This document shows, in pieces, positions 3,405 through 36,593 of a DNA stretch of 64,000 bases. The DNA lies in the NCBI GenBank assembly GCA_002840275.1, contig PHAB01000007.1, forward strand, positions 1-64,000, in the 5' to 3' direction. The notes under the pieces were generated by a model. That model searched no databases. It worked only from the letters and a program-made list of their open reading frames with translations, and was not told the DNA's origin. Made by a program: the position numbers and the translations under genes. Within the stretch, counting starts at the first letter, position 1, and every line of letters begins with the position of its first letter. This DNA is from Firmicutes bacterium HGW-Firmicutes-14. Lineage in GTDB: Bacteria > Bacillota > Thermincolia > Thermincolales > UBA2595.

Positions 3405-4442
3405 ATGATTAAGGAAGCTATCAACAAGGTCGTGAGGGGCCGGGACCTTACCGAACAGGAAGCGGTAGAACTGATGGAGGATATTATGAGCGGAAAAGCC
3501 ACCGATGCCCAGATAGCAGCATTTATTACCGCTCTGAGGATCAAAGGGGAAACGGTTGACGAGATTACAGGATTCGCCAGGGTAATGAGACAGAAGGCCA
3601 CAGCGGTAAGGACCGGCCATCCCCTGCTCCTTGACACCTGCGGTACCGGTGGGGACGGTTCCCATACATTTAATATTTCCACCACCGTGGCCTTTGTAGT
3701 GGCAGGTGCCGGGGTGCCTGTAGCCAAACACGGCAACCGCTCTGTTTCCAGCCGCAGCGGCAGTGCCGATGTGCTGGAAGCCCTGGGGGTAAACATCAAC
3801 ATTGCTCCTGAACAAGTGGGAGAGTGTATAGATAATGCGGGTATCGGATTTCTTTTTGCCCCGGCCCTGCACGGTGCCATGAAATATGCCATAGGACCCC
3901 GCAGGGAAATAGGAATCAGGACTGTTTTCAACATCCTGGGACCCCTGACCAATCCGGCCGGCGCACAGGCCCAGGTACTGGGGGTCTATGACCCGTCTCT
4001 TACCGAAGTGATGGCCGGGGTACTGGCAAACCTTGGTACCAGGTCAGCTTTTGTTGTCCACGGAGAAGGCGGTCTTGACGAGGCCTCCACCCTTGGTCAG
4101 ACCAGGATAAGTGAAGTCAGGGAAGGCCGGGTCACAACTTATTATCTCAATCCCCGGGATTATGGGATTGCATATACTACTATCGAAAAACTAAAGGGCG
4201 GAACAGCCGAAGAAAATGCAGTTATTACCGGGAACATCCTCCAGGGAGAAACAGGTCCCCGGAGAGATATAGTCCTGCTTAATGCTGCCCTGGCCCTGGT
4301 GGCTTCCGGTGTGGCCCGGGCAGTGGAAGAAGGCCTGGCCCTGGCAGCATCGGCCATCGATACCGGAAAAGCGGCAGAAGTCCTGGATAAACTGGTCCGG
4401 TTCACCCAGGCTCTTGCAGATCCCGAAACAAAAGTTGGGTAA
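3405..4442 (+). CDS. trpD: anthranilate phosphoribosyltransferase
   Basis: Transfers the phosphoribosyl group of PRPP to anthranilate. Standard length (345 residues), with the C-G-T-G-G-D glycine-rich PRPP site near residue 79 and the K-H-G-N-R-S-V-S-S segment following. A GGAGGAG box at 3390-3396 precedes ATG 3405. The gene is followed by a 329-bp palindromic element that separates it from trpC, so it is the last trp gene before an interruption in the transcript. Confidence 0.96.
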
Positions 4443-4460: not shown

Positions 4461-4789
4461 AGTGCCCCATCCAGCAGCGTTGACCTGATTTTTTTTTCAT
4501 AAAATAATGTTTTATGAGGATTGATATATACAACGGAATTACTCTTGGCTCCCTTGTGCGCCTCTAAGGCGAAATCACTGATTCCGCCTCCGGTTTCACC
4601 CGTCCAAGCGACCTCCTGTCGCTGGACGGCTCCGGCATCCATGCCTTCGCCGAAGGCTCCATCAGTGTTTTCGCCTAAGAGGCGCAACAATGGAACCAAA
4701 GGCAAATCCTTTTGTATATATCAATCCTCATAAACACATGAGTTTACCGGCAACTATATTATCAGGTCAACGCTGCTGGATGGGGCACT
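4461..4789. repeat. nested palindromic element, copy 1 (trpD-trpC)
   Basis: The ends 4461-4489 and 4761-4789 are perfect 29-bp inverted repeats. Inside, 4511-4533 and 4712-4734 are perfect 23-bp inverted repeats containing TGATATATACAA. The enclosed arms are again imperfectly complementary (shared CGCCTCT, AAGGCGAAA and CACTGAT blocks), and near the centre CCGTCC pairs with GGACGG and GCGAC with GTCGC. No ORF of its own is supported. The same asymmetric sequence recurs in reverse orientation at 36166-36593. It is either a non-autonomous mobile element (MITE-like) or a mobile structured RNA; no clear target duplication is visible. Confidence 0.85.
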
Positions 4790-4817: not shown

Positions 4818-5615
4818 TTGATTCTTGACCGGATCGTTGAACACAAAAAAATGGAAGTACAGGAGAACAAGAAACAGGTTCCCACCGAAATGCTCCGGGA
4901 GAAATGTGAAAACCTCAGGGCAGGATTCAAAAAACGGCCATTTGCCGTTGCTTTGAGGGGGGAGGGTGAAGTATCTCTCATTGCTGAGATAAAAAAGGCC
5001 TCACCTTCTAAGGGCCTTATTCGCCCGGATTTTGATCCCGTAAATATCGCCGGAATTTATTCCGGTGCGGGGGCGGCAGCCATCTCTGTCCTGACCGACA
5101 GGGAATTCTTCCAGGGCAGCCCTGAGTACCTGGCAACGGCGCGGACTGTTACAGACCTGCCCCTGCTGAGGAAGGATTTCATCATTGACCCCTGCCAGAT
5201 TTATGAAGCGAAACTGCTGGGGGCAGATGCAGTGCTGCTGATAATGGCGGTGCTGGATGATGATGAGGCCTGCCGGTTCCTCGATATCGCTTCCGGGCTT
5301 GAGCTGGATTGCCTGGCAGAGGTGCATACTGAGGCTGAAATGGTCAGGGCCCTGGCAATAGGGGCAAAAACAATAGGAATTAATAACCGTGACCTGAAAA
5401 CCTTTAAAACAGACCTGGAGACCACGTTCAGACTGAGAGAAATGGTTACCCGACCTGATGTGACAGTTGTCAGTGAGAGTGGAATAAACAGCAGGAATGA
5501 TATGGAACGGCTCCTTAACCACGGTGTGCATGCAGCGCTGGTCGGTGAGGCCCTGATGAGGGAGCAGGATATCGGGCGGAAAGTACAGGAACTTCTGGGG
5601 AAGGAAGCATCATGA
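4818..5615 (+). CDS. trpC: indole-3-glycerol phosphate synthase
   Basis: Closes the indole ring of carboxyphenylamino-deoxyribulose phosphate. The 265-residue TIM barrel shows the E-I-K-K-A-S-P-S motif near residue 58 (catalytic Lys), L-L-R-K-D-F, G-I-N-N-R-D-L and S-E-S-G-I motifs. GGAGG at 4805-4809 precedes a TTG start at 4818. The stop overlaps trpF by 4 bases. It is the first trp gene downstream of the palindromic element, so its expression depends on read-through of that structure or on an unseen promoter. Confidence 0.96.
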   Translation: MILDRIVEHKKMEVQENKKQVPTEMLREKCENLRAGFKKRPFAVALRGEGEVSLIAEIKKASPSKGLIRPDFDPVNIAGIYSGAGAAAISVLTDREFFQGSPEYLATARTVTDLPLLRKDFIIDPCQIYEAKLLGADAVLLIMAVLDDDEACRFLDIASGLELDCLAEVHTEAEMVRALAIGAKTIGINNRDLKTFKTDLETTFRLREMVTRPDVTVVSESGINSRNDMERLLNHGVHAALVGEALMREQDIGRKVQELLGKEAS

Positions 5616-8274: not shown

Positions 8275-9129
8275 ATGGGATACAAACTTGTCAGCAGAAA
8301 AGAAAAACCCGATAACACGGTGGTCAAGGTCGGAAATGTCATTGTCGGCGGTGATTGCCTGACCGTTATTGCGGGACCGTGTGCAGTTGAGGACAGGGAA
8401 CAATATATACAGGTTGCAGGCTATCTAAAGAAATTGGGAGTCCAGATGCTTAGAGGCGGCGCCTTTAAACCCCGGACATCCCCATATGCCTTCCAGGGCC
8501 TGGCAAAAGAGGGTCTGGATATACTTGCCGAAGCCGGAAGGGTGACAGGATTGCCCATTGTAACTGAGGTCATGGATACCAGGGATGTGGAAGCAGTTGC
8601 CGGATATGCGGATGTTATCCAGATCGGCAGCCGTAATATGCAAAATTTTATCCTGCTGAAAGAAGCAGGCCGCACCGGTAAACCTGTCATGCTGAAAAGA
8701 GGACTTTCTGCTACTATCGAAGAGTGGCTCATGGCGGCTGAATATATAATGGCAGAGGGGAATTCAGATATAATAATGTGTGAACGGGGTATCCGGACCT
8801 TTGAAACCCATACCAGGAACACCCTTGATATCAGCGCCATTCCGGCTGTTAAACACCTGTCCCACCTGCCTGTGATAGTTGACCCAAGCCATGCGGCAGG
8901 AAGGTGGGGGATGGTTGCTCCCCTGGCAAAGGCATCAGTGGCTGCCGGAGCAGACGGGCTGCTGATCGAAGTACATCCATGCCCAAATGAGGCCCTGTGT
9001 GATGGGGGACAATCCCTTACCCCGGGCAATTTTGCCCAGCTCTTAGGTGAATTGGTCCCGGTTGCTGAAGCCGTGGGGCGAAAGTGTAAATGCGAGGCAA
9101 AACACCTTGTCAAAAAAAGCATAATATGA
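8275..9129 (+). CDS. aroF: DAHP synthase, short form without N-terminal regulatory domain
   Basis: 3-Deoxy-7-phosphoheptulonate synthase, joining PEP and erythrose 4-phosphate at the entry of the shikimate pathway. It is a KDO8P-synthase-like type I enzyme (A-G-P-C-A-V-E, G-G-A-F-K-P-R-T-S-P-Y, R-G-x-S-A-T-x-E-E-W motifs). At 284 residues it lacks the ferredoxin-like regulatory domain of about 70 residues that the next gene has, and it carries an unusual basic, Cys-containing tail. Five bases separate it from trpA, so it belongs to the trp operon. Lack of the regulatory domain suggests weaker allosteric inhibition by Tyr/Phe; inference. Confidence 0.9.
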   Translation: MGYKLVSRKEKPDNTVVKVGNVIVGGDCLTVIAGPCAVEDREQYIQVAGYLKKLGVQMLRGGAFKPRTSPYAFQGLAKEGLDILAEAGRVTGLPIVTEVMDTRDVEAVAGYADVIQIGSRNMQNFILLKEAGRTGKPVMLKRGLSATIEEWLMAAEYIMAEGNSDIIMCERGIRTFETHTRNTLDISAIPAVKHLSHLPVIVDPSHAAGRWGMVAPLAKASVAAGADGLLIEVHPCPNEALCDGGQSLTPGNFAQLLGELVPVAEAVGRKCKCEAKHLVKKSII

Positions 9130-9303: not shown

Positions 9304-10317
9304 ATGATAGTAGTTATGCACAGCGGCGCTGAAAAAAACGAAATAGATGAAGTGCTGGAAAGGCTGCAGGGCCTTGGATTTCAAATTCACCTTTCCCAGG
9401 GTGTGGAAAGGACCATTATAGGCGCCATAGGTGATAAGACCAGGCTGAATGAAACCGCCCTGGAAGCAATGCCGGGGGTTGAGAAGGTTGTACCCATACT
9501 CCAGCCATATAAGCTTGTCAGCCGGGAGTTTAAGGACCACAACTCTGTGGTCAGGGTCGGTGAACTGGAAATGGGCAGAGAAAAGATTCATGTAATGGCC
9601 GGCCCGTGTGCTGTTGAGAGCAAGGAACAACTGATGGAGACCGCAAAACAGGTAGCCAGGGCCGGAGCAACAGTGCTCAGAGGGGGAGCATTCAAACCCA
9701 GGACATCACCCTATGCTTTTCAGGGTCTTGAGGAAGAAGGGCTGAAAATGCTGGCAGAGGCCCGGGAAAGCACCGGTCTCAAGATTATAACTGAGGTTGT
9801 CGACCCCAGGACAGTAGAACTGGTTTCAAGATATGCGGATATTCTGCAGATTGGGGCCAGGAATATGCAGAACTTCTTTTTACTCAAAGAAGTGGCCCAA
9901 TCCGAAAAACCTGTTGTCCTAAAAAGAGGACCTTCAGCGACGGTGGAGGAATGGCTTATGGCGGCGGAGTATTTAATGTCAGGCGGCAATTATAATGTCA
10001 TTTTATGTGAACGCGGAATCCGCACCTTTGAACCATACCTGAGGAATACTCTCGATCTGAGTGCGGTCCCGGTGGCAAAACACCTGTCCCACCTGCCGGT
10101 TATAGTTGATCCCAGTCATGCCATCGGGAAGTGGAGGTTTGTCAAACCAATGGCCATGGCAGCTGTTGCCGCCGGCGCAGACGGGCTGCTCATCGAAGTC
10201 CATCCGAACCCGGCCCAGGCCCTTTGTGACGGGCCCCAGTCCCTTACTCCGGACAACTTTATGGATCTGATGAGCGAATTAGGCAGGGTTGCATCTGTCC
10301 TTGGCCGGGTTGTTTGA
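9304..10317 (+). CDS. aroF: DAHP synthase with N-terminal ferredoxin-like regulatory domain
   Basis: Same reaction as the preceding paralogue. The 337-residue protein has a ferredoxin-like domain at residues 1-70 (Thermotoga type, the site of feedback inhibition) before the catalytic barrel with A-G-P-C-A-V-E near residue 100. The two catalytic domains are clearly related over their full length. A GGAGG box at 9291-9295 precedes ATG 9304. It begins the aroF-tyrA-aroA group. Confidence 0.93.
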   Translation: MIVVMHSGAEKNEIDEVLERLQGLGFQIHLSQGVERTIIGAIGDKTRLNETALEAMPGVEKVVPILQPYKLVSREFKDHNSVVRVGELEMGREKIHVMAGPCAVESKEQLMETAKQVARAGATVLRGGAFKPRTSPYAFQGLEEEGLKMLAEARESTGLKIITEVVDPRTVELVSRYADILQIGARNMQNFFLLKEVAQSEKPVVLKRGPSATVEEWLMAAEYLMSGGNYNVILCERGIRTFEPYLRNTLDLSAVPVAKHLSHLPVIVDPSHAIGKWRFVKPMAMAAVAAGADGLLIEVHPNPAQALCDGPQSLTPDNFMDLMSELGRVASVLGRVV

Positions 10318-36165: not shown

Positions 36166-36593
36166 CCAGTGCGCTGTCTGGCAACGTTAACCTGTTTTTT
36201 CGAATTAATTTCGAATTAATATAGTTGCTGGTATATTGATGTGTTTATTAGAGTTGATATATACAAAAGGATTTGCCTTTGTTTCCATTGTTGCGCCACT
36301 TGGCGAAAACACTGTTGGAGCCTTCGGCGAAGGCACGGATGCCGGAGCCGTCCAGCGACAAGCTGCGGAGCCGTTGGCGCTTCAGCGCCTTACGGATCCG
36401 GCGTACCCCTTGCGGGTAGAGGTCGCTTGGACGGGTGAAACCGGAGGCGGAAGCAGTGATTTCGCCTTAGAGGCGCATAATGGAAACAAGAGTAATTCCG
36501 TTGTATATATCAACCCTAATAAAACATTATTTTATACAGCGATTTTAAAAGACTTCAAAAGAAAAAGGTCAACGTTGTCCGAAGGGGCACTGG
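36166..36593. repeat. nested palindromic element, copy 2 (recA-recX), inverted relative to copy 1
   Basis: The ends 36166-36197 and 36566-36593 are imperfect inverted repeats (CCAGTGC outermost, CAACGTT with ACCT inside). 36244-36266 and 36501-36523 are 23-bp inverted repeats with one mismatch and share TGATATATACAA with the copy at 4461. Long stretches next to them are nearly identical to copy 1 on the opposite strand, including the arm asymmetry, so it is the same element inserted in reverse. Its centre has about 70 extra bases with two more small hairpins. An open frame through it into recX is an accident. No transposase. Confidence 0.85.

Follow-up and report, generated by a model that had tools for sequence, protein, structure and literature searches.

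Short palindromic repeats such as RUP, BOX, QMITE, ERIC and RPE have been reviewed among the bacterial MITEs and palindromic repeats (PMC10969869). TwoAYGGAY (RF01731; Weinberg et al. 2010, PMC2864571) is a structured RNA family, and the proposal that it is a CsrA-binding sRNA was made as early as 2014 by Gardner and Eldai (PMC4333381). E. coli csrB falls into the same Rfam clan, CL00106, and the high-affinity CsrA/RsmE site is an ANGGAX hexaloop, with GGA, set directly on a stem (PMC4005645). The locus described here touches on each of these systems. It was found in a window of 64,000 nucleotides (the whole stretch of DNA that was analysed) from Firmicutes bacterium HGW-Firmicutes-14, and its 329-bp feature is a MITE-like, non-autonomous repeat. 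We consider it likely that this is a mobile element with a divergent TwoAYGGAY core, which would be moved by a transposase acting in trans, would present GGA hairpins as CsrA decoys or sites, and would owe its nested structure to landing in palindromes.

Within a trpEGDCFBA operon, the element lies between trpD (3405-4442) and trpC (4818-5615), and the ORF list of the window holds no plausible gene or ORF within its 329 bp; on both points the earlier note on this DNA was correct. The three nested levels that it had described, with perfect 29-bp ends, perfect 23-bp inner repeats and a third, imperfect palindrome inside, were recovered as well. In a repeat search of the window, the left terminal inverted repeat AGTGCCCCATCCAGCAGCGTTGACCTGAT (4461-4489, plus strand) is complementary at 29/29 positions to the right one (4761-4789, minus strand). 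The inner palindrome consists of a left arm, TTTATGAGGATTGATATATACAA (4511-4533, plus strand; 21 matches in the genome, control 0), and an inverted copy of it identical at 23/23 positions (4712-4734, minus strand), both embedded in a longer imperfect pair of 43 nt, whereas the third pair (4557-4593/4650-4686) is imperfect, with 84% agreement over 37 nt. A/T-rich stretches separate the outer from the inner arms and form the unpaired spacers of the element. These nested repeats far exceed chance, and folding, which the earlier note had proposed as a check, gave energies 18-22 SD better than those of shuffled sequences on both strands (minus strand, -204.7 kcal/mol, z -18; plus strand, -188.3 kcal/mol, z -22).

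The interior of the palindrome resembles TwoAYGGAY over the full length of the covariance model (4544-4700, minus strand; RF01731 model positions 1-168, 38.7 bits, E 6.8e-5), with a score below the gathering score of 43. Copies in a relative, G001, score up to 48.2 bits, and three of them exceed 43. Because the score is 38.7 bits here and homologues in that relative reach 48.2, the core in the window is best described as a divergent TwoAYGGAY homologue rather than as a certified member. Its fold is a stem bearing two hairpins, each of which exposes GGA in a loop of the AYGGAY type. Hairpin 1 (GGC-AUGGAU-GCC; 4634-4645, minus strand) has an intact AYGGAY hexaloop of the CsrA/RsmE ANGGAX type, and hairpin 2 (GCGAC-AGGAG-GUCGC; 4608-4622, minus strand) has a loop that departs from AYGGAY and retains GGA; in a sibling copy (L003) both AYGGAY loops are intact, the loop of hairpin 2 being ACGGAU. 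Other Rfam candidates, namely PK-BYV (E 0.44) and microRNA families matching palindromic copies, fell below threshold and were dismissed as chance matches to hairpins.

The source genome contains no fewer than 11 dispersed copies, at 11 loci distributed over 10 contigs, eight near-complete and three internally deleted, as well as several fragments, all at unrelated places, the best match other than the trp element itself having an E value of 1e-116. The pattern of the terminal inverted repeat alone matched 13 times and its reversed control 0 times; solitary element ends also occur, and one mini-element of about 85 bp (L041) consists of little beyond the two ends. A second copy within the window (36168-36592, plus strand) occupies the gap between recA and recX, neighbours whose names were read from sequence, and its RNA strand is in sense with these genes. 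An additional hairpin-rich insert of about 57 nt sits in its hairpin 2 and recurs in two further copies (L007 and L008). In 7/7 relatives from the same family, trpD and trpC are 18-72 nt apart, compared with 378 nt here, and the element is absent from the gap. Because this gap is short in all seven, the simplest view of the trp element is that of an insertion specific to its lineage. Thus, the element has the features of a MITE: it is short, lacks a transposase gene, has 29/29-bp terminal inverted repeats, is dispersed in copies and has an empty site in relatives. The earlier note had suggested a copy search and a comparison of the site in relatives, and it held that a single copy, or presence at the same place in all relatives, would speak against mobility; neither was found. 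Its two guesses both gained support, that of a non-autonomous transposon from the multiple copies and the seven relatives that lack the element at this place, and that of a mobile structured RNA from the multiple copies together with the match of the core to a known structured-RNA family. No autonomous partner was found in the draft assembly of the source genome, either by the terminal-repeat pattern or by terminal repeats plus subterminal DNA, and a search of the draft assemblies of G125, G001 and G259 for DDE_Tnp_1 genes yielded none with matching ends. Judged by TrpC, Peptococcaceae MAGs (53-57% identity) are among the nearest named relatives. Directly after trpA stand two adjacent similar ORFs (8275-9129 and 9304-10317), putative tandem DAHP synthases, of which the second has an N-terminal extension.

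In a covariance-model search, TwoAYGGAY was present in 44 of 299 genomes of the phylum, frequently at 8-9 scored copies per genome, and no match arose in the 14 control genomes; given this multi-copy occurrence, the family behaves in these genomes as a dispersed repeat rather than an RNA confined to one locus. In an alignment of 29 cores from approximately 27 genomes (42% mean identity), nearly all invariant or near-invariant columns fall within the two CAnGGAnG loops, and compensatory (double) changes occur at 11 of the 13 consensus pairs. The most conserved columns of these cores are thus those of the ANGGAX hexaloop on its stem, which the core displays. In 25 genomes out of 27, the inverted arms that flank the core pass the 99th percentile of cross-family controls; arms from different families are unrelated in sequence, despite the relatedness of the cores. 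What is newly added here is that many genomes of the phylum have TwoAYGGAY as a repeat in multiple copies, that it nearly always lies within long palindromic arms that differ between lineages, and that its most conserved letters are those of the two GGA loops. The gene for CsrA is encoded in the source genome (contig C56, 126821-126976, E 1.1e-24) and in 42/44 genomes with TwoAYGGAY, compared with 171/255 others (Fisher p 4e-5, in a test that ignores phylogeny); among genomes at least 90% complete, the figures are 38/39 and 161/228. This co-occurrence is a new, independent test of the proposed link between TwoAYGGAY and CsrA. The two carriers without a csrA match are 75% and 94% complete. The latter (G186) has nine TwoAYGGAY copies and is a possible counter-example to CsrA dependence.

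The flanks of the copies are most telling in a relative, G125, in which the element arms (terminal inverted repeat CAGAnTGTnGACAAA) were matched 106 times. Directly outside both ends of most of the copies examined in this genome stands the same complete, locus-specific, terminator-like hairpin, for example CAATCCCTTGATTTTTATCAAGGGATTA on either side of L334; since both flanks carry the same hairpin, what is duplicated at the target site is the hairpin. The 95th percentile of the control was exceeded by 29 of 35 flank pairs (G125 supplied most of the pairs, and G116, G039 and G259 a few), and 21 of these 29 duplications contain a perfect stem of 6-12 bp, compared with 6 at the 99th percentile of random 21-mers; one copy in G039 (L059) has a comparable duplicated hairpin. 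At L324-L353 and L152-L159 of G125, the flanking direct-repeat hairpins measure approximately 15-28 bp, and the length of the duplication tracks that of the hairpin. The simplest reading of these flanks is that insertion in G125 would target a terminator stem-loop and duplicate it; terminator stem-loops were not found described as a transposition target in the literature searched. At the trp copy, neither a hairpin target (3 pairs across) nor a clear target-site duplication was seen, and the origin of its nesting can therefore be approached only by analogy: nesting might arise when such elements land in or beside other palindromes, and the trp copy may likewise stem from the insertion of one palindrome into another. 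Repeats nested within repeats occur elsewhere: in G001 (L086/L100, L074, L083 and L091) and in G036 (L357, L362 and L377), the TwoAYGGAY core hosts other repeats, several of them palindromic, or has its hairpins replaced by them.

Given its place within the operon, its very stable sense-strand hairpin and a promoter-like 10/12 site at 4480-4508, the element could be viewed as a trp-specific attenuator or riboswitch-like leader controlling trpCFBA. However, it is missing from the same gap in the seven relatives, it occurs at unrelated loci, including recA-recX, and the structured-RNA strand of the trp copy is antisense to the operon, which makes such a leader very improbable. Orientation over 75 loci points the same way: between co-directional genes, 19 copies are in sense and 28 in antisense, and only 29 of the 75 loci have a downstream gene in sense. 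This is not the arrangement of a leader, which argues against the Rfam type cis-regulatory for TwoAYGGAY. A conserved promoter inside the element was also rejected, as the hexamers of the trp copy are not kept across copies. Because its RNA is antisense and one GGA loop is altered, the trp copy is probably a tolerated insertion and not a trp regulator, and, with loop 2 reading AGGAG, little CsrA function is expected from it. Its sense-strand hairpin may affect trpCFBA via termination or processing, a weaker statement than that of the earlier note, according to which the element must affect the expression of these genes.

The absence of any orientation bias relative to genes can also be read as favouring the idea that TwoAYGGAY is a DNA signal, whose stem and loops are recognised in single-stranded or cruciform form by a transposase or another host protein and whose likeness to CsrA sites is accidental. 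Wobble pairs fit this idea in that G.U is not preferred over A.C on the presumed RNA strand of the arms (76:78) and hardly so in the basal stem (41:35); with wobble pairs symmetric between the strands, the arms look like DNA palindromes, and the palindromic targets, too, suggest recognition of hairpin DNA. However, the hairpin stems show a slight excess of G.U (17:9), much like that of terminator-like controls (19:9), the loop letters match the high-affinity CsrA/RsmE consensus (PMC4005645) and lie on one strand (122 vs. 0, partly by construction, the model being oriented), and csrA co-occurs with TwoAYGGAY. A purely DNA-level role thus appears unlikely to us. It is rather doubtful, too, that the core moves on its own into the loops of existing palindromes, including other MITEs, so that the outer arms belong to the target. 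The same core does occur in palindromes that are unrelated to one another, including some from a single genome (G001 L018 and L019; G247), outer elements without the RNA exist (G001 L084 and the mini-element of the source genome), and several G001 copies (L014 and L016) lie inside a hairpin loop, with flanks that form the hairpin and a duplicated loop. However, the statistic for loop targets in G001 is suggestive and does not clearly exceed its control, and arms common to dozens of copies per genome indicate that arms and core move there as a unit. Palindromes without a core were rejected as proof of empty sites; those of G125 retain remnants of the core and look like deletions.

According to the preferred reading, that of a MITE-like element with a TwoAYGGAY core, the element would move as DNA, by means of a trans-acting transposase that works on its ends. 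Once transcribed, the strand that carries the GGA loops would bind CsrA through its two hairpins, and the scattered copies could serve as small decoys for CsrA or provide sites for it within host transcripts. Tentatively, one might envisage a whole class of such elements in the phylum, which would carry CsrA-decoy RNAs, insert into hairpin DNA with a preference for terminators, duplicate the whole stem-loop, keep the terminator on the far side, add a decoy to the 3' ends of host transcripts and, by repeated insertion, build Russian-doll structures. A family that Rfam classes as a cis-regulatory RNA is thus seen to travel as cargo within a mobile, palindromic repeat, and terminator stem-loops are suggested as a transposition target by the hairpin-sized duplications in G125. 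If CsrA binding is true, selfish DNA spreads sites for a global regulator throughout genomes, with dozens of copies in some of them, and a route from transposon to regulatory network becomes directly testable.

Compared with TwoAYGGAY RNA as described, the element shares the basal stem, the two AYGGAY-type hairpins and a wide occurrence in the same phylum, whereas the window copy scores under the gathering threshold and has one altered loop. Rfam lists the family as cis-regulatory; here, it is a dispersed repeat set in palindromic arms with terminal inverted repeats and without a leader-like orientation. CsrA-binding sRNAs of the CsrB/RsmB type (RF00018) likewise present GGA in hairpin loops and belong to the same clan. 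However, they have many sites and a single dedicated gene, whereas TwoAYGGAY has two putative sites and many mobile copies, for which CsrA binding is predicted. Like RUP, BOX, QMITE, ERIC and RPE (PMC10969869), the element is short and gene-less, has inverted-repeat ends, is multi-copy and folds into hairpins, and pneumococcal repeats also insert into one another, which may be compared with the nesting seen here. Unlike these repeats, it has as its cargo a conserved structured RNA whose loops are of the CsrA type (CsrA is not mentioned in that review), and its target duplication in G125 is an entire terminator hairpin. Thus, the trp element is ordinary as a MITE; less ordinary are its cargo, an RNA of the CsrA clan, the mobility of the TwoAYGGAY family and the hairpin-sized duplications in a relative.
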